Positions 1,571 to 32,859 of a stretch of 38,754 bases of DNA are shown one piece after another (within the stretch, counting starts at the first letter, position 1; the number at the start of each line of letters is the position of its first letter). The notes under the pieces are model-generated. The model was not told where the DNA came from and searched no databases. It worked only from the letters and a program-made list of their open reading frames with translations. The stretch is from an uncultured Clostridia bacterium (lineage in GTDB: Bacteria > Bacillota > Clostridia > Christensenellales > Borkfalkiaceae): assembly GCA_944341075.1 (NCBI GenBank), contig CALVLV010000019.1, positions 1 to 38,754 of the forward strand, read 5' to 3'. The position numbers were made by a program, and so were the translations under genes.

Positions 1571-1670
1571 AAAATTCAGAGAAGCAAGCTTTTTAAAATA
1601 CTTTATGGGCGCAAGCAGGGTTTCCCTGCGTTAGCGCGACACAATTTGTCGCGTAAGCGAGCTCACCGGT

Positions 1671-1776
1671 GTGAATTGCCGCAATTATATAATATGAGAG
1701 CCCTTAAAATCGCGGCAAGAGCGGCTGGCCGCTCAAATCACGAAGATTTTACGGCGGCACCAGCCGCAAAATCTGT
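1671..1776 (-). repeat. R1 multi-hairpin element, copy A (inverted)
   Basis: Read on the minus strand it has the R1 plan. Hairpin 1 (1744-1774) has arms AGATTTTGCGGCTG and CGCCGTAAAATCT. Then come the linker TCGTGATTTGA, hairpin 2 (1719-1734, GAGCGGC/GCCGCTC) and hairpin 3 (1676-1718, TTGCCGC/GCGGCAA, with a TATTATATAATT side), ending in TTCAC. The stem bases differ from other copies while complementarity is kept. Confidence 0.75.
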
Positions 1777-1785
1777 GAGCAAAAA

Positions 1786-5532: not shown

Positions 5533-5645
5533 TTCACAATTTTTTCGTGCTGGCCGAGCCCGAAAAAATTCGTGAGTTTGGGAGAGCCAGCTCTCCCTTG
5601 CCCCGATTTTTTAAGGGCCCCCGATAATATAATCGGGGCAATTCC
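5533..5645 (+). repeat. R1 multi-hairpin element, copy B
   Basis: TTCAC (5533-5537); hairpin 1 AATTTTTTCG/CGAAAAAATT (5538-5547 with 5561-5570) around a GGCCG loop; linker CGTGAGTTTG; hairpin 2 GGAGAG/CTCTCC (5581-5596); hairpin 3 TTGCCCCGATT/AATCGGGGCAA (5598-5608 with 5631-5641) with ATAATATAAT on the right side. It is followed by GC-rich hairpins up to about 5720 and a TTATTATTTAA run leading into copy C. Confidence 0.8.
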
Positions 5646-5777
5646 CTCTTTGGTGCGCGAGGGCTTTGCCCGCTGCCCTGCCGAGGGTTCCCTTCGGGAA
5701 ACGGCAGAACGTGCTGACCGCAGCAAATAGGGTCTTTCTGCGCAAGGAAACCTTGCTTGAAACGTTTATTATTTAAG

Positions 5778-5890
5778 TTCACAAAAATGTCGTGCGGGCC
5801 GCGCGCGACAATTTTCGTGAGATTGAGGGGTTCTGCCCCTCTTGCCGCGACTTTAAAAGCCCACAAATTATATAGTCGCGGCAATTCACC
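5778..5890 (+). repeat. R1 multi-hairpin element, copy C
   Basis: TTCAC (5778-5782); hairpin 1 with a GGGCC loop and GTCG/CGAC arms; linker CGTGAGATTGA; hairpin 2 AGGGG/CCCCT (5826-5840); hairpin 3 TTGCCGCGACT/AGTCGCGGCAA (5842-5852 with 5874-5884); closing TTCACC. Downstream are GTGCAGGTATGCAC and the GCACAACGG-ACAC-CCGTTGTGC hairpin (5955-5976), also seen in copy E with changed stem bases. Confidence 0.8.
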
Positions 5891-6085: not shown

Positions 6086-6160
6086 TTCACAATTTTTTCG
6101 TGCTGGCCGCGCGCGACAATTTTCGTGAGTTTGAGAAACCAAGTTTCTCTGGCGGCATTC
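6086..6160 (+). repeat. R1 element, copy D (partial, mixed arms)
   Basis: TTCAC (6086-6090); a left arm AATTTTTTCG like copy B but a right arm CGACAATT like copy C, so hairpin 1 pairs poorly; linker CGTGAGTTTGA; hairpin 2 GAGAAA/TTTCTC. Hairpin 3 is missing, although ATTCAC is present just downstream (6157). It looks like a recombinant between copies. Confidence 0.65.
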
Positions 6161-6246
6161 ACTTCCAGTGAGCCGGCTTGCGTGACAAATTGTGTCGCGC
6201 TTAACGGCGAACCAAATTCGCCTTGCGCACGTTGATTATTTTAATA

Positions 6247-6390
6247 TGTCATTGACGCTATTGCGCCTACGGCGAACAATAGCTATTCCGTCGCTTCGCT
6301 CCTTACGACCGAGCGACAGCGAGCGGAGAAATCTCGTTTATTATACTTCTTTTGTTGCTTTGAGATTTATCGACTACGCTCGAAATGACA
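6247..6390. repeat. R2-type composite repeat upstream of recR, after ybaB
   Basis: It begins TGTCATTGACG, has AACAATAGCTATTCCGTCG and GGAGAAATCTCG in the middle, and ends CGAAATGACA. Blocks are shared with 11196-11408, 28161-28293 and 32161-32262. In the rest of this gap (6391-6539) I see only a short perfect hairpin GTTTGCCC/GGGCAAAC (6506-6525) and no gene. Confidence 0.65.
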
Positions 6391-6539
6391 AGCGGAGCAT
6401 CGCTCAACCATAATGCACCATAGGCGACTTGGGTAGCCGTTGTTCGCCGCAGACGCAATACAGTCAATAATGTATGGCCGGCAAAGGCCGCTCGTCACTC
6501 ATCGCGTTTGCCCGACAGGGCAAACTAATAACTGATAAC

Positions 6540-11195: not shown

Positions 11196-11356
11196 TGTCA
11201 TTTCGACCGGAACGAACAAAGTGAGTGCAGCGGAGAAATCTCAAAAATCCCACCGTCATATTCTCGCTTGCTCGAATATGCCACCTCCCCTATCAGAGGA
11301 GGCTGCATTGCGGAAAAGATTTCTCCACGCGGGCTTTGCCCTTGGTTGAAATGACA
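11196..11356. repeat. R2 palindromic element downstream of cwlD
   Basis: The left end is TGTCATTTCGACC (11196-11208) and the right end GGTTGAAATGACA (11344-11356), near-perfect inverted repeats. The internal GGAGAAATCTC and AGATTTCTCC are also inverted. The centre holds a hairpin-rich insert (CCTCCCC-TATCAGAGGAGG). Confidence 0.75.
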
Positions 11357-11364
11357 GAAAGTAC

Positions 11365-11408
11365 GGAATAGCTATTGCTGCGCGTTATCGCCAATAGCGT
11401 CAATGACA
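11365..11408. repeat. R2-associated tail repeat
   Basis: CGGAATAGCTATTGCTGCG, then CGCCAATAGCGTCAATGACA. Near copies are at 28213-28293 and, inverted, at 6247-6290. Confidence 0.6.
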
Positions 11409-16250: not shown

Positions 16251-16421
16251 TCACGCTATCGCGTGCCGCCTCTCTTTGGCAAGGGAGGCACGATTAAGAA
16301 AAGATTCTTCTGCGCGTAACCAAACCCCTTCGTCACGCTCCGCGTGCCACCTCCCCTTAGACAGGGGAGGCACGATTAAGGAATAGATTTCTCCACTCGC
16401 TACCGCTCGGTCGAAATGACA
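16251..16421. repeat. Tandem GC-hairpin repeats plus R2 fragment
   Basis: Two related units (CTCTCTTTGGCAAGGGAGGCACGATTAAG and a variant with CTCCCCTTAGACAGGGGAGG, each shown here by position at 16270-16300 and 16350-16380) form short hairpins. An R2 fragment, AGATTTCTCC to GGTCGAAATGACA, follows at 16384-16421. Confidence 0.55.
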
Positions 16422-16469
16422 ATTATTTTTTAATAATAAATGTTTCAAGCAAGGTTTCATTATATTTTA

Positions 16470-16652
16470 ACGCGGGGCAAAAACGTTGGAGATGCGAGCA
16501 AAAATCCCCCCTTCGCTCGCAATGCTCGCTCTTCCCCCCCTTTGGCAAGGGAGGCAAGAAGGAGCGTGCGGAATGTTGCGAAGGAGCTTACTTAGAGGTA
16601 AGTGACTGAGCAAACCCGTAAACGCGACAAAGTATTGCGACGCATATACAAA
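16470..16652 (+). repeat. R3 dispersed repeat next to the relA stop codon
   Basis: Order of modules: CGCGGGGCA, GTTGGAGATGCGAGCA, the CCCCCCTTTGGCAAGGGAGG hairpin, GGAGCGTGCGGAATGTTGCG, the hairpin CTTACTTAGAGGTAAG, and a tail ending TATTGCGACGCATATAC five bases before the relA stop. It matches 28540-28685 almost base for base in the second half. Confidence 0.75.
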
Positions 16653-28074: not shown

Positions 28075-28155
28075 AATCCCCCTTTAATTCCCCCTTTACA
28101 CAAGGGGGACAAGGTGTATGGCAATTCCCTCTTTACACAAGGGGGACAAGGTGCA
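28075..28155 (+). repeat. Short tandem repeat, upstream of tgt
   Basis: Two direct copies of a roughly 40-bp unit, each with AATTCCC, CTTTACACAAGGGGGACAAG and GTGTATGG or GTGCATGG. They lead straight into the R2 element at 28161. Confidence 0.7.
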
Positions 28156-28160
28156 TGGCA

Positions 28161-28293
28161 GAGATTTCTCCATGCGGGCTTTGCCCGGTCATAAGGAGCA
28201 AAGCGACGGAATAGCGTAAGGAACGGAATAGCGATTGTTGCGCATAACGCCAATCGCGTCTTGCTGCGCACAGCGCCAATCGCGTCAATGACA
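28161..28293. repeat. R2 composite repeat in the queA-tgt gap
   Basis: GAGATTTCTCCATGCGGGC at the left, AAGGAGCAAAGCGACGGAATAG in the middle (by position 28193-28216), a doubled CGCCAATCGCGTC segment, and CAATGACA at the right end. It shares blocks with 11196-11408 and 32161-32262. Confidence 0.6.
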
Positions 28294-28382
28294 TATTGAA
28301 ACGCTGAGCATGTTTGGCTCAGAACCGGGCAAGACGAGGCGCGCGAGGAAAACCTGAAGAGAATTTTATCTAAAGATAATAA

Positions 28383-28685
28383 ACGTCGCAAGGCGGGTTT
28401 CCCGCCGCATGTTTACGCGGAGCATGATGTTGGAGAAGCAAGTAAAATCCCCCCTGGCTTGCCTGTGGCAAGCCCTCCCCCCTTAATAAGGGAGGCAAGG
28501 GGAGCGTGCGGAACGCCGCGAAAAAGTTTACGCGGGGCATGTTTGGCTTAGAACCGAGCAAACTACGCGGAGCATGATGTTGGAGAAGCAAGCAGGTCAA
28601 GGAGCGTGCGGAATGCTGCGAAGGAGCTTACTTATAGGTAAGTGACTGAGCGGAACCGCAAGCGCGACACAGAGATGCGCCGCTT
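28383..28685 (+). repeat. R3 repeat, two copies ending at the queA stop codon
   Basis: A first unit (about 28410-28540) carries TGTTGGAGAAGCAAG, the CCCCCCTGGCTTGCC to GGGAGGCAAGG hairpin and GGAGCGTGCGGAACG. A second unit (about 28540-28685) carries the same start, GGAGCGTGCGGAATGCTGCG, the CTTACTTATAGGTAAG hairpin and the tail GATGCGCCGCTTATAC. The tail ends at the queA stop. No gene is seen in the 680-bp gap 28004-28683. Confidence 0.75.
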
Positions 28686-29814
28686 ATACAATCATCATTG
28701 CATCGCCGAAGGAGAAAAAGCGATACCTGTTCTCCACCGCCAGCCTATACAGCTCCAGCGTCTTTTCACGCCCGACGAGGGCGGATACAAGCATTATCAG
28801 AGTGCTTTCGGGCAGGTGGAAGTTGGTTATAAGGCAGTCCACACATTTGAACTTATAGGGCGGATATATAAATATTGAGGTATTGCCGTGACAGGGAGAA
28901 ATGGTGCCGTCTGCATTGGCGGCGCTCTCCAGCGTGCGCACCGAGGTGGTGCCCACGGCGATCACCCTTCGGCCTTCGCGCTTGGCTTTGGATATCATTT
29001 CCGCCGCCTCCTCGCCTACCTCGTAATACTCGCTGTGCATCTTGTGGGCGGTTATGGCGTCCTCCTTTACGGGGCGGAAGGTGCCCAGCCCCACGTGCAG
29101 GAGTATCTGCGCTACCTGCACGCCCATGCCCTTTATCTCTTCCAGAAGCTGCGGGGTGAAGTGCAGGCCTGCGGTGGGCGCGGCGGCAGAGCCGTCTGTG
29201 CGGGCGTATACCGTCTGGTATCGGTTCTGATCTTTGAGTTTTTGGTGGATATACGGCGGCAGCGGCATGGTTCCCACGCGAGCGAGCGCCTCTTCAAACA
29301 CGCCGTCGCACTCGAAATCGACTATGCGTTCGCCGCTCTCCGTTACGCAATTTACCGTGAGCGAAAGCCCCTCGTCCACCACAAGCCGAGTGCCGGGGCG
29401 GCACTTTTTACCGGGCTTTACAAGCACCTCCCACCTTAAAGAGGAAATGCGCTTTAATAAGAGCACCTCTACCTTTCCGCCGTGTTCGGTATGGGCGTAC
29501 AGCCTTGCGGGCAACACCTTGGTATTGTTTATAACCAGCACGTCGCCAGGGCGAAGGTACTGCTTTATGTCGCGGAAGATCTTATGTTCCACCCTGTCCT
29601 CCGCCCTGTTATACACAAGCATGCGCGAGGAATCGCGCGGCTCGACGGGGGTCTGGGCGATGAGCTCTTCGGGCAGGTCGTAGTAAAAATCGCTCTTTTT
29701 AAGGTCTGTGGGCGCGCCGCTTGCGAACACGTCGCGCTCTTCGCCCGCAGTGTTTTCGGTATTATTTATATTGTCTGCGTTTTCGGGCAGGCTGCCCGAG
29801 TTAGTTTCCGTCAT
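28684..29814 (-). CDS. queA: S-adenosylmethionine:tRNA ribosyltransferase-isomerase QueA
   Basis: 376 residues. From about residue 39 it follows the family from its usual start ([18 protein letters not shown]) to the end. It transfers and rearranges the ribose of SAM onto preQ1-tRNA to give epoxyqueuosine. The first 38 residues are an extra acidic, Asn/Glu-rich extension with no internal Met. The ATG at 29814 has AAGGACG before it and overlaps the ruvB stop by 14 nt, so the long form seems real unless a non-ATG start is used. It ends the ruvC-ruvA-ruvB-queA run. Confidence 0.95.
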
Positions 29815-30880
29815 TTTCGTCCTTGTTGAAAAGCGAGAGCTGCGCCGCCTGCCTTTCAGATACCTTATATCCTAAATGTTCATATCCGCCGCGCAATATC
29901 ATTCTGCCGCGCGGGGTGCGCGCAATAAAGCCGAGCTGGAGAAGGTACGGTTCGTACACGTCCTCTATGGTGTTGGCGTCCTCGTTTACCGTGGCGGCAA
30001 GCGTTTCAAGCCCCACGGGGCGGCCGTCGAACTTTTCCACCATGGCACGCAAAATGGCGCGGTCGGTTTCGTCCAGCCCGAGTTCGTCTATCTCCATTCT
30101 GCCGAGGGCAAAGCGTGCGGCGCTGAGCGAGATGACGCCCTCGCCGCCTATCTCTGAAAAGTCGCGCACGCGCTTTAAAAGCCTGTTGGCTATCCTGGGC
30201 GTGCCGCGGGAACGCTTGGAAATTTCCTCAGCGGCGGCGTCCTCTATTTTAACGCCGAGTTTTACCGCGCTTTTGAGCACTATCTCTTTAAGCTCTGCGG
30301 GGGTATACATCTCCAGCCTGCAGATTATGCCGAAGCGGTTCCTTAAGGGGGTGGCTATCATGCCCGCCCTGGTGGTGGCGCCTATAAGCGTGAATTTTTT
30401 AAGCGAAAAACGTATATTGCGCGCGCTGGGGCCCTTGCCGACGATTATGTCGAGGGCGTAGTCCTCCATGGCGGAATAGAGTATCTCCTCCACGCTGTGG
30501 TTGAGGCGGTGTATTTCGTCGATGAACAGCACGTCGCCGTCGTTGAGGTTGGTGAGAATGGCGGCAAGGTCGCCGCTGCGCTCTATGGCGGGGGCGGAAG
30601 TAAGCTTCAGCGTGCCGCCCATTTCGTTTGCAATGATATGCGCGAGCGTGGTTTTGCCAAGGCCGGGCGCGCCGTAAAGGAGGACGTGCTCTAACGCCTC
30701 CCCCCTCTTTTTTGCGGCAGCCATATATACGTTTAAATTTTCCTTTACCTTGACCTGACCTACATAGTCGGCAAGCGTTTTGGGACGGAGAACGTTTTCC
30801 TCGGCGTCGTATTCGCCCTTGGTGCTCTTTACAAGCCTGTCCTCTTCCTCCGTTCCGAACTCTTCGTCGTCAAAAAACAT
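29801..30880 (-). CDS. ruvB: Holliday junction branch migration helicase RuvB
   Basis: 359 residues. AAA+ motor motifs: Walker [13 protein letters not shown] (about 70), Walker [11 protein letters not shown] (about 118), sensor 1 IGATTRAG and arginine-finger region; a winged helix follows at the C-terminus. RuvB hexamers drive branch migration with RuvA. The ATG at 30880 was preferred to the one at 30895 because AAGAGG lies 6 nt upstream and the longer form adds MKRFF outside family similarity. R1 copy E begins 11 bp before the start codon, separating ruvB from ruvA by 379 bp. Confidence 0.97.
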
Positions 30881-30890
30881 AAAAAACCTC

Positions 30891-31000
30891 TTCACGGAAT
30901 TGTCGCGCAGGCCGTGCGCGACAATTCCCGTGACCTGAGGGGCGCCGCCCCTCTTTGCGCAATCTTAAATGCCCTCGATTATATAATTGCGCAAATTCAC
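30891..31000 (+). repeat. R1 multi-hairpin element, copy E, at the ruvB start
   Basis: TTCAC (30891-30895); hairpin 1 is a perfect 13-bp stem GGAATTGTCGCGC/GCGCGACAATTCC (30896-30908 with 30916-30928) around AGGCCGT; linker CGTGACCTGA; hairpin 2 AGGGGC/GCCCCT (30938-30952); hairpin 3 TTGCGCAAT/ATTGCGCAA (30955-30963 with 30986-30994); closing TTCAC. Confidence 0.85.
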
Positions 31001-31002
31001 CC

Positions 31003-31195
31003 TGCTCAGGCGCAGGTATGCGCAAATTGAGACGAGCGGCACGTTCCGTAGAACAGCGGACACCCGCTGTTCGTGTGCCGCGGAGAGACCGCAACATGCC
31101 GAGCGTTAGCGTGAGGCGTTGCGGAGCCGACCAACGAGGCACGAGGCGAACCTGCTGCGGCGGGAAACCCGCCTTGCGACATGATTATTATTTAA
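31003..31195 (+). repeat. R1 accessory module of copy E
   Basis: GCGCAGGTATGCGC, then the stem GAACAGCGG/CCGCTGTTC with ACAC loop (31051-31072) enclosed by GCGGCAC/GTGCCGC, then CCGCAAC/GTTGCGG, and finally the end module GGCGGGAAACCCGCC with TTGCGAC and ATTATTATTTAA leading into copy F. Confidence 0.7.
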
Positions 31196-31259
31196 TTCAC
31201 GAATTTTGACGGCGGGCCGCGCCGTTAAAATTCCGTGAGTTTGAAGGGGCTAACCTCAA
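31196..31259 (+). repeat. R1 element, copy F (partial), at the ruvA end
   Basis: TTCAC (31196-31200); hairpin 1 GAATTTTGACGGC/GCCGTTAAAATTC, 13 pairs with one G-U, around GGGCCGC; linker CGTGAGTTTGA; then it fades into the ruvA stop codon. The stem sequence differs strongly from copy E but still pairs. Confidence 0.75.
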
Positions 31260-31850
31260 TCACATGCTGCGGAGGGCGGCGCGGATGACGTCTTCAAGCG
31301 ACACGGCGCCTTCGGCATGCGCCCTTTCTATGGCGCGGGCGCTCTCTGCGCGGGTGAAGCCGAGCGACATGAGCGCAACAACGGCGTCTTCGTCGCCGTC
31401 TTCCACAAACACGGGTGCGGGCGCGCCCTTTGCAGGCGCCGCGGCAGCCGTGCCAGAAACTTTTTCGCGCAGCTCTAAAATTATGCGCTCCGCCGTCTTT
31501 TTGCCGAGGCCCTTTACCGTGCTGAGCTTTTTAACGTCGGACGAGGCGATGGCTACCGCCAGCGAATTTATATCCATGCCCGAAAGCACAGCTATGCCCA
31601 TTTTGGGGCCTACGCCCGAAACGGATACAAGCTTTAAAAACATATTCTTTTCTGCAGGAGAAGAGAAGCCGAACAGGCTGATGCCGTCTTCGCGCACCTG
31701 AAGGTAGGTATATACCTCGCCATCGGTTTTGCCGCTTAAAGAGGCAAGCGCGGAGGCCGAGCAAAGAACTTCGTAACCGACGCCGCCCGTTTCGATGAGC
31801 GCCGTATCTTCGCTGAGCGATAAAATTTTACCTTTGAGATAACCGATCAT
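31260..31850 (-). CDS. ruvA: Holliday junction branch migration complex subunit RuvA
   Basis: 196 residues. An N-terminal OB fold (MIGYLKGKILSLSEDTALIE) is followed by two helix-hairpin-helix motifs (VSGVGPKMGIAVLS and VKGLGKKTAERIILEL) and a small C-terminal domain (about 150-196) that contacts RuvB. RuvA tetramers hold the four-way junction. The ATG at 31850 has AAAGGTC upstream. The longer in-frame start at 31934 runs through R1 copy G and is rejected. Confidence 0.96.
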   Translation of the reverse strand: MIGYLKGKILSLSEDTALIETGGVGYEVLCSASALASLSGKTDGEVYTYLQVREDGISLFGFSSPAEKNMFLKLVSVSGVGPKMGIAVLSGMDINSLAVAIASSDVKKLSTVKGLGKKTAERIILELREKVSGTAAAAPAKGAPAPVFVEDGDEDAVVALMSLGFTRAESARAIERAHAEGAVSLEDVIRAALRSM

Positions 31851-31862
31851 AGTAAGACCTTT

Positions 31863-31972
31863 TTCACGAAATTTTCGCGCAGGCCGTGCGCGAAAATTTC
31901 CGTGACCTAAGGGGCGCTGCCCCTCTTTGCGCAATTCTGAGTGCTCTCGATTATATAATTGCGCAAATTCAC
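31863..31972 (+). repeat. R1 multi-hairpin element, copy G, at the ruvA start
   Basis: TTCAC (31863-31867); perfect 13-bp hairpin 1 GAAATTTTCGCGC/GCGCGAAAATTTC (31868-31880 with 31888-31900) around AGGCCGT; linker CGTGACCTAA; hairpin 2 GGGGC/GCCCC (31911-31923); hairpin 3 TTGCGCAATT/AATTGCGCAA; closing TTCAC. Against copy E, stem 1 has two fully compensated base-pair changes and an identical loop. The unit goes on to the GGCGGG-AAA-CCCGCC end module at about 32069-32083. Confidence 0.85.
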
Positions 31973-32105
31973 CCTGCTGCGCGAGGGCTTTGCCCGCTGC
32001 CCTGCCGAAGGACTTCCGCTTGCGGAAAACGGCAGATGCGCAGGTATGCGCAAATTGGGGCCTGCTGCGGCGGGAAACCCGCCTTGCGACGTTTATTTAT
32101 AACTT

Positions 32106-32170
32106 ACTTACAATTTTTTCGCGCAGGCCGCGCGTGACAATTTCCGTGATTTTGAGAAACGAGATTTCTC
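32106..32170 (+). repeat. R1 element, copy H (partial) fused to R2
   Basis: CTTAC, then AATTTTTTCGCGC with loop AGGCCG and a poorly matching right arm, CGTGATTTTGA, and a GAGAAA/TTTCTC hairpin that doubles as the start of the R2 element running to 32262. Confidence 0.55.
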
Positions 32171-32262
32171 CATGCGTTCGCCTACGTCTCACTTAGTTGT
32201 AAGGAGCAAAGCGACTTTAGTAACATATCGTTTGCCCGCAGGGCTCGATTACGTCAATGACA
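32161..32262. repeat. R2-type repeat downstream of ruvC
   Basis: GAGATTTCTCCATGCG, AAGGAGCAAAGCGAC and an end TACGTCAATGACA, the same blocks as 28161-28293 in shortened form. Confidence 0.55.
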
Positions 32263-32272
32263 TGCATTTTTA

Positions 32273-32352
32273 TGTCATCTCGACCAAGGGCATAAGCCCG
32301 CGCGGAGAGATCTCTTTGCGACTCGGCCAGTCGTAAAATTTCGTGAACTTAT
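32273..32352. repeat. R2 half-element fused to inverted R1 fragment (copy I)
   Basis: TGTCATCTCGACC to GAGAGATCTC (32273-32315), followed by a minus-strand R1 start (TTCACGAAATTTTACGACT, GGCC loop, AGTCG) that ends about 15 bp after the ruvC stop. Confidence 0.55.
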
Positions 32353-32361
32353 TGCGTGAAC

Positions 32362-32859
32362 TTATTTTATGCCGAACAATTTGCCGAAGCGGGAGGTGTG
32401 CGCATGGCACAGACCCACGGCCAAGGCGTCTGCAGCGTCGTCCGGGCGGGGGATCTTTGAAAGGCGGAGCATTGCCGTTACCACGTGCATCATCTGCACC
32501 TTGTCTGCCCTGCCGTAGCCGGTGAGCGCCTGCTTTATCTGCATGGGGGTGTATTCGTACAGCCTGCCGCAGTACTTTACGCACGTTAAAAGTATTACGC
32601 CGCGCGCGTGCGCAACAGGTATGCCTGTGGTGATGTTCTTTGCAAAGAACAGTTCCTCCACCGCTACCTCTGCGGGCTTATATTTATTGAGGAGCTTGTT
32701 CACGCCCTCCTCCAGCATGGCGAGGCGCACGGGCAGGCTCTCTTCTTTGGGGGTGAGCACCACGCCGTAGTCCACGGCCGCGCAGCTGTCGTCTGCCCTC
32801 TTTTCAATTACGCCGTAGCCCATTGTGGCAAGCCCGGGGTCTATGCCCAGAATTATCAT
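32362..32859 (-). CDS. ruvC: Crossover junction endodeoxyribonuclease RuvC
   Basis: 165 residues, usual length. The RNase H-like catalytic acids are D7 (GIDPGLATMGYG), E68/E69 (VAVEELFFAKN) and D141/D144 (RPDDAADALAVGLCH). RuvC nicks Holliday junctions symmetrically. It is the first gene of a ruvC-ruvA-ruvB-queA run, although 511 bp of repeats separate it from ruvA. Its promoter (32931-32959) faces that of argH. The ribosome-binding site is weak (ACGGAAGC). Confidence 0.97.
   Translation of the reverse strand: MIILGIDPGLATMGYGVIEKRADDSCAAVDYGVVLTPKEESLPVRLAMLEEGVNKLLNKYKPAEVAVEELFFAKNITTGIPVAHARGVILLTCVKYCGRLYEYTPMQIKQALTGYGRADKVQMMHVVTAMLRLSKIPRPDDAADALAVGLCHAHTSRFGKLFGIK

Follow-up and report, generated by a model that had tools for sequence, protein, structure and literature searches.

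Hairpin repeats inside a ruv operon

The window, meaning the whole 38,754-nucleotide stretch analysed here, comes from a genome of 1.87 Mb in 44 contigs that is 94.7% complete (G000). Translations and Pfam matches identify a ruvC–ruvA–ruvB operon, all on the minus strand, with ruvB at 29801–30880, ruvA at 31260–31850 and ruvC at 32362–32859. Two main copies of the hairpin repeat R1 lie inside this operon and run on the plus strand, opposite to the ruv genes. A first-pass annotation had named several copies of such a repeat; all of them are present in the window, and the arms and partner arms that it quoted read as it gave them. Five are complete through hairpins H1–H2–H3 (30891–31001, 31863–31973, 5533–5647 and 5778–5890 on the plus strand, 1670–1779 on the minus strand), while those at 6086–6163 and 31196–31252 proved to be only partial, comprising H1 and a piece of H2. 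An alignment of 18 G000 copies (A2; 113 positions and 33 pairs, with the pairing structure written down from one copy) underlies the covariance model R1, to which the bit scores below refer.

31863–31973, plus strand: R1 copy, H1-H2-H3-terminal, between ruvA and ruvC (122.2 bits; single-stranded DNA fold z −7.9)
31864–31905, plus strand: H1 of the 31863 copy, with TCAC, 14-bp variable stem, GGCCG loop, unpaired C and GTGA (sequence, alignment)
31909–31925, plus strand: H2 of the 31863 copy; its 5' foot AAGGGGC covaries with the terminal site
31926–31967, plus strand: H3 of the 31863 copy, with 11-bp variable stem and TATATAAT side (alignment)
31968–31973, plus strand: terminal site TTCACC of the 31863 copy, third member of the H2 foot/terminal covariation
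32038–32051, plus strand: H4 of the 31863 copy, GCGCA-GGTA-TGCGC, then AAATTG (sequence)
32061–32102, plus strand: H5 and AT-rich tail, 3' end of the 31863 unit (sequence; exact end putative)
30891–31001, plus strand: R1 copy, H1-H2-H3-terminal, between ruvB and ruvA (123.1 bits)
31010–31023, plus strand: H4 of the 30891 copy (sequence)
31030–31150, plus strand: accessory module (ACAC-loop hairpin) in the H4-to-H5 interval of the 30891 copy
31151–31195, plus strand: H5 and AT-rich tail of the 30891 copy
31196–31252, plus strand: partial R1 copy, H1 and H2 left arm, near the ruvA stop (49.3 bits)
32107–32182, plus strand: degenerate partial R1 copy, H1 region (35.9 bits)
5533–5647, plus strand: R1 copy, H2 GGGAGAG, terminal TTCCCT (108.6 bits)
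5778–5890, plus strand: R1 copy (115.7 bits)
6086–6163, plus strand: partial R1 copy (59.6 bits)
1670–1779, minus strand: R1 copy, H2 GAGCGGC, terminal TTCACA (88.4 bits)

A five-hairpin unit

The R1 unit spans about 200 nt and consists of five hairpins (H1–H5) and an AT-rich tail, with accessory modules in some copies between the terminal site and H5, on the plan TTCAC-H1-GTGA-TTT-H2-H3-TTC(A/C)CN-H4-AAATTG-H5-ACRTTTATTATTT. The shared plan of the first-pass annotation stands, but the unit reaches about 90 nt further to the 3' side, through H4, H5 and the tail, and the hairpin that had been set apart as accessory (GCGCAGGTATGCGC / GTGCAGGTATGCAC) is present as H4 of the unit itself. H1 is built of TCAC, 14 variable pairs, a loop, an unpaired C and GTGA; its commonest loop, GGCCG, occurs in 66 of 176 distinct copies. 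The unpaired C before GTGA (at 31901, for example) is conserved in H1, and a subfamily with a GTG-type H1 loop carries a two-base bulge in its place. Read by eye, 29 of 30 copies continue after TTC(A/C)CN with H4, AAAT, H5 and an AT-rich tail, the exception being L154. H4 varies but stays paired, with eight fully paired arm sequences (87/123 copies with a perfect H4 found by script), and H5 is two-tiered and also variable. The putative site, TTC(A/C)CN, is internal, with about 90 nt of the unit still to follow on its 3' side.

A TTC(A/C/G)C site lies upstream of 159 of 174 H4 instances. We considered solo H4–H5 units and rejected them: 64 H4 hairpins had no H1 that was recognised, and the ones read proved for the most part to belong to composite or degenerate copies or to copies with a different spelling, so H4–H5 is counted as part of one unit. 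A subfamily common to several species carries R2, a hairpin module some 130 nt long, within H2, with the outer H2 foot kept; such copies lie at L009 1773–2003 and L024 1553–1789, and further ones in L019, L020, L026, L114, L116, L124, L133, L137, L139 and L252.

Other repeats share the window. Another interspersed family with mosaic copies, CCCCCTTTGGCAAGGGAGGCAAGAAG ... GCGGAATGTTGCGAAGGAG ... GACACAGTATTGCGCCGCTTATA, occupies 1470–1837, 16274–16651 and 28449–28691; a tandem pair of 37-nt copies of AATTCCCCCTTTACACAAGGGGGACAAGGTGTATGGC, 95% alike, lies at 28086–28159; and repeats around GGAGAAATCTC, CATTTCGA and CGTCGCTTCGCTCCTTACGACC are found at 6239–6400, 11294–11377, 28157–28332 and 32140–32320, some of them 3' of R1 units. 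R1 tails seem to gather other repeats.

Distribution and positions between genes

Searching the host genome and its relatives with the model returned many more copies and delineated a family specific to one genus of gut bacteria, Candidatus Coproplasma. G000 holds 85 matches at E ≤ 0.01 and 75 at E ≤ 3e-5; the ten weakest (E 0.002–0.009) include antisense matches over other copies, and composite copies are counted twice. A 261-base R1 query matched 60 places in the same genome. Across the genus, 80 of 93 genomes matched at E ≤ 1e-6, and copy numbers per genome, counted under stricter filters, reach at least 40 at the top end. In a set of 41 genomes (the host's own, 24 others of the genus and 16 from other genera of the order) 22 matched, all within the genus. 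A draw of 151 genomes from the order, under stricter filters, gave three matches, again all within the genus, and no match in any genome outside it, the negatives including six same-family genomes of other genera. A pattern scan found at least 116 stretches, in Clostridia, Clostridiales, Eubacteriales and four Candidatus Coproplasma species. Phages and plasmids yielded no match to one 261-base R1 query, and viral contigs none to one short exact R1 pattern.

The ruvA–ruvB gap is filled by an R1 unit in five genomes (G000, G002, G107, G071 and G077) and lacks R1 in two others, where it measures 15 nt (G015) and 14 nt (G042). This survey covered 30 genomes, three of them unreadable; the remaining gaps varied in length and content, with no R1 recognised. 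By eye, G019 has an oppositely oriented R1 copy immediately ahead of ruvB (L088). The gap in G044 (L326) is 669 nt long and, by eye, contains an apparent small open reading frame flanked by two alike stretches; it seems to be another kind of insertion at the same spot. One search returned 76 R1 matches in G000 vs two in G015, which is one of its nearer relatives (ruvB 85% identical) and 83% complete. Copies within a genome are up to 97% identical over at least 150 nt (G000, G002), and a partner at 95% identity or more exists for 6 of 54 copies in G000, 7 of 36 in G002 and 0 of 26 in G014. We count the filled and empty ruvA–ruvB positions, the 76 vs two matches and the 97% identical copies in favour of a mobile element, and R1 does look like the hairpin-based mobile element that the first-pass annotation had offered as one possibility.

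R1 copies often lie close to a gene end or a gene start. Where a same-strand gene ends within 60 nt, 75 of 88 copies start at most 10 nt from the stop codon; where a divergent gene starts within 60 nt, 46 of 88 lie 9–16 nt from the start codon; and 69 of 245 copies have neither type of neighbour within 60 nt (simple ORF calls). Among 159 parsed copies, 5–9 nt repeats indicative of target duplication stayed within the range of shuffled pairings, the 3' end being known only approximately. A MITE derived from a DDE transposon was rejected, since the 5' TTCAC-H1 and the 3' AT-rich tail are by eye not inverted copies of each other and there is no excess of target duplication.

Covariation of the stems

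The stems differ from copy to copy yet stay paired, as had been claimed from the few copies in the window; covariation is strong in A2 and was seen again in many more copies. Both partners change in 24 of the 33 A2 pairs. Two-sided changes fill 97 of 592 cells, against a shuffled mean of 31.6 (sd 4.5) with none of 500 shuffles as high, and the covariation score is 0.472 against 0.173 when shuffled. Sliding the partner by one to three columns lowers the share of paired cells from 94.3% to 33–48%; helix by helix this share is 93.5% for H1, 94.4% for H2 and 95.7% for H3. Folded as single-stranded DNA, 31863–31978 gave z = −7.9 on the plus strand and −8.5 on the minus strand, and with such similar values the fold alone does not separate the strands.

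A parallel code between the H2 foot and the terminal site

Scanning the alignment for mutual information between variable positions of different modules revealed a second layer of covariation. The scan does not assume any pairing between H2 and the terminal site, and the H2 register was chosen through its own right arm. In the first scan (106 of 134 rows, 96 distinct copies) two contacts between H2 (p) and the terminal site (t), p4–t6 and p2–t4, ranked first and second of 473 position pairs, at 0.87 and 0.84 of the maximum against a median of 0.07. The larger set began with 339 aligned matches, of which 254 were parsed, 239 lay within pairing limits and 225 were distinct in all modules; 31 were dropped for length, 22 for lacking TTC near the end and nine for lacking GTGA, the rest being identical repeats. 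Because parsing required TTC, t3 is fixed as C by construction, and t4 onward is free. Here the top four of 750 comparisons (0.70–0.75) were p4–t6 and p2–t4 through either H2 arm, the next standing at 0.51. With flanks and H5 added (183 copies) the two contacts led 1069 comparisons, the third scoring 0.41, and with loops added they ranked second and fourth of 3235, first rank falling inside H3 and third to the H1 loop with bulge type. A further contact, p5–t7, fell from 0.65 in the 96 distinct copies to 0.29 in the 225.

The rules are as follows: at p4, G goes to C, A to T and C to A; at p2, A goes to A, G to C and T to A. The p4–t6 rule is obeyed by 207 of 225 copies and p2–t4 by 215, whereas 2000 shuffles, which ignore kinship, never gave more than 127 and 162 respectively. 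By genome, the p4 and p2 rules hold in 44 and 47 of 48 copies in G000, 27 and 27 of 27 in G002, and 24 and 23 of 24 in G014; for p2 in G002 the shuffles equal the observed value, so that this genome alone does not show the p2 rule. The first copies supplied the rules, and they are themselves included in the 225-copy set used for scoring. Among distinct copies fetched after the rules were made, 82 of 93 obey at p4 and 87 of 93 at p2; the informative ones obey in 21 of 29 cases where p4 is not G, with eight failing, and in 16 of 19 where p2 is not A. Of the seven composite copies that were readable, two (L137 and L252) depart from the p4 rule, and L124 conforms only if the register is shifted. 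As to which H2 arm partners the site, the six copies in which an H2 pair is broken favour the right arm in four cases and the left arm in two.

The H2 foot and TTC(A/C)CN run parallel, which excludes an ordinary antiparallel helix. Two physical readings fit. The terminal stretch may lie along the H2 stem in a triple helix, because H3 joins H2 without a spacer. The code may instead reflect a guide/site contact as in IS608. Written as triplets, position 4 takes G-C to C, A-T to T and C-G to A, and position 2 takes A-T to A and G-C to C; neither reading is canonical in all states. The 1069-comparison scan (183 copies) found no guide/target code between the element and the upstream flank or H5 foot, and the lack of a code in the flank leaves target choice by base pairing unsupported.

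Whole-hairpin differences at shared positions

We compared 24 pairs of R1 copies at the same position in different genomes and the same orientation (flank identity 74–91%); by our count these represent 13 positions, with ten pairs from the ruvA–ruvB site. For H1, 197 base pairs were unchanged, 114 changed on both sides and 25 on one side; for H3 the numbers were 179, 68 and 17. In two pairs with flanks about 91% identical, 6 of 14 H1 base pairs carried two-sided changes and 2 of 14 one-sided changes. A few same-position pairs kept all or nearly all stem bases, and in several the H2 foot and the terminal site changed jointly. Because whole hairpins often differ at shared positions, the stems seem to travel as cassettes. 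These data fit the exchange of whole hairpins among copies, or insertion more than once at the same spot, better than slow compensation. The compensated change reported in the first-pass annotation is real in that two-sided changes occur; step-by-step compensation is often not what is seen, whole hairpins differing at shared gene-adjacent positions.

RNA or DNA

Compensated stems are by themselves no proof of RNA function. The two readings are separated by counting G-U against A-C, on the premise that an RNA fold under selection makes G-U more frequent than A-C among imperfect pairs. The G-U/A-C counts were 20/24 for H1 (114 distinct arm pairs with at least 11 of 14 paired), 5/18 for H2 (69, at least 4 of 6) and 16/11 for H3 (88, at least 8 of 11), beside 7/3 in a small control of 10 tRNAs. 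Registers of H1 and H3 were chosen for the most Watson–Crick pairs, which inflates the paired share and not G-U relative to A-C. There is no G-U excess over A-C across H1–H3, and DNA is therefore favoured over RNA. Pyrimidine–pyrimidine vs purine–purine mismatches numbered 87 vs 11 in H1, 34 vs 2 in H2 and 8 vs 9 in H3; the excess in H1 and H2 is a strand asymmetry without firm interpretation. Relative to the neighbouring genes, 48 copies were same-same, 41 anti-anti and 32 plus 21 mixed (n = 142). The joint change of paired hairpin arms and of the three-strand contact suggests that folded single-stranded DNA, rather than RNA, is what is preserved in R1.

Comparison with Rfam agrees with the impression that no named family was at hand, as nothing in the window exceeded its gathering score except a tRNA; at E ≤ 1 the best match within 30880–32200 was MIR7510, at chance level (20.4 bits against a cut-off of 93). 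Near the two ruv copies we found two promoter-like matches (shuffles 1.0, sd 1.0) and one terminator-like match (shuffles 2.8), both within the shuffle range. A promoter or terminator role was rejected, the matches around the ruv copies being no different from shuffles.

Candidate mobilisers

Three protein families were searched, Y1_Tnp (PF01797), Y2_Tnp and RVT_1, and none of them matched in G000, a genome that is 94.7% complete. In the genus, Y1 occurs in 28 of 93 genomes. Neither Y1 nor RT presence was associated with high R1 copy number across the 93 genomes: Y1 was found in 6 of 19 genomes with at least 20 R1 matches vs 22 of 74 others (Fisher p 1.0), and RT in 3 of 19 vs 27 of 74 (Fisher p 0.10). 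The R1 model gave no match at E ≤ 1 on 10 Y1 loci (among the 41 Y1 matches listed). Y2 gave two weak matches across the 93 genomes, neither of them in G000. A Y1 transposase was rejected as mobiliser on its absence from G000, the lack of association with copy number and Y1-gene flanks that are unrelated by eye; a Y2 (IS91/Helitron-type) enzyme or a reverse transcriptase was rejected for want of a match in G000.

Weighing the alternatives

A structured RNA, be it regulatory, antisense or an RNA-mobilised retroelement, would have its fold selected on one strand. R1 has the conserved loops, variable paired stems and tertiary-type covariation that structured RNAs show, its parallel H2/terminal contact would suit a major-groove RNA triple helix, and H3 alone is slightly richer in G-U than in A-C. 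The new structured RNA that the first-pass annotation had also proposed is nevertheless not supported, as G-U does not exceed A-C over H1–H3 and R1 copies occur in either orientation to their neighbours. The missing Rfam family, the lack of an RVT_1 match in G000 and the shuffle-like promoter and terminator counts point the same way, and we consider an RNA of this kind distinctly improbable. Slightly less improbable, though still unlikely, is that stem pairing is kept by a mutational process and not by selection on the fold, through template switching that corrects imperfect palindromes and through gene conversion between copies. The preponderance of two-sided over one-sided changes at the same sites, the arrival of changes as whole hairpins and the absence of a G-U excess, as expected of DNA-level copying, all accord with it; the parallel code, which is not palindromic, is left unexplained, as are the conserved loops, unpaired C and joints.

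The reading we think least probable, already weakened, derives R1 by decay or miniaturisation from an IS200/IS605 or REP/RAYT system of the genus. Hairpins with an unpaired base, the absence of a visible target duplication, covariation between a hairpin foot and a short site and the Y1 genes of the genus all recall such systems. Against it, Y1 is absent from G000 and unrelated to R1 copy number, the ten Y1 loci lack R1 and have different flanks by eye, and GTAG stands directly 5' of the unit in just 6 of 235 copies.

Our own proposal, to which we give about even chances, is that R1 is a genus-specific, non-autonomous mobile element maintained at the DNA level as a folded strand, with cassette-swapped stems and a three-strand contact between H2 and the terminal site. 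R1 would spread into short intergenic gaps and persist there; its 5' end often abuts a stop codon or lies immediately ahead of a ribosome-binding site. Its sequence would be held at the DNA level, one strand folding into hairpins. A protein may read the loops, the joints and the unpaired C, leaving stem sequence free provided that pairing is kept, and the stems would change mainly by exchange of whole-hairpin cassettes between copies. The H2 foot and TTC(A/C)CN would form the three-strand contact in parallel register. Since this contact is comparable to the triplets between foot and cleavage site in IS200/IS605, TTC(A/C)CN may be where a strand is cleaved or joined. More tentatively, and on balance we doubt it, the three-strand code would specify where an enzyme cuts or joins, stem and site changing together so that copies diversify into separate specificities within one genome. 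Against mobility, which we infer, stand the lack of Y1, Y2 and RVT_1 matches in G000, the internal position of the site and gene orientation without clear bias.

Comparison with known systems

BOX, ERIC, bcr1 and other modular intergenic repeats are intergenic, present in many copies and presumed non-autonomous. R1 resembles BOX, ERIC and bcr1 in its modular build, the sequence comparison having been made through Rfam only, and we know of no stem/site code of the R1 kind in them. Many short intergenic palindromes also characterise REP, BIME and REPIN elements; these are single short palindromes with a GTAG foot, whereas R1 is about 200 nt long, has no such tag and resides in a genome without a Y1 match. 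For TnpAREP of E. coli, the stem bulge and the foot matter (PMC8266576).

The closest parallels are with IS200/IS605. Base triplets join the guide, the 3' hairpin foot and the target in IS608 (PMC5934647), and site choice there follows linear and cross complementarity (PMC8266576). R1 shares with IS608 hairpins folded from one strand, an unpaired stem base and, putatively, a short site tied to a hairpin foot; as in IS200/IS605, no target duplication was seen (159 copies; 3' end approximate). Unlike IS200/IS605, R1 has five hairpins, an internal site and a covarying foot inside the H2 stem, G000 has no tnpA match, and R1 is absent from ten Y1 loci of the genus. The IS200/IS605 guide sits at the foot of a hairpin, whereas the R1 code between H2 foot and terminal site is parallel and inside a stem, its cleavage site putative. 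IS608 and ISDra2 target the lagging-strand template (PMC6006769), whereas for R1 gene orientation, a proxy, is 48 same, 41 anti and 53 mixed (n = 142).

ITxF and TM-ECO are repeats of bacterial genomes that combine a hairpin with a third stretch matching the hairpin stem (PMC4666352), and R1 is likewise a repeated hairpin with a third stretch matched to the stem. The ITxF search uses loops of 1–6 nt, whereas in R1 the roughly 40 nt of H3 separate H2 from the third stretch, and TM-ECO is a purine motif, whereas two of the R1 rules, C-G to A and A-T to A, fall outside the canonical triplets. Mitochondrial RHE are interspersed hairpin repeats, single to triple and of unknown function; in sponges their stems are conserved and their loops variable, the reverse of R1 (PMC2800124). 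The interspersed hairpin repeat is a known kind, while neither the R1 family nor a comparable code was found described in the open-licence literature searched. R1 is real and larger than first described, a genus-wide five-hairpin family for which a DNA-level, non-autonomous mobile repeat is the best reading.

Interspersed hairpin repeats are common, and the forces that keep their folds and move them are seldom testable. In R1, one genus supplies numerous copies whose stems are swapped, together with a non-antiparallel rule from which a specific three-strand contact is predicted. This makes the reading of such repeats as folded single-stranded DNA directly testable, with the H2 foot and TTC(A/C)CN as a clear target for finding the protein involved.
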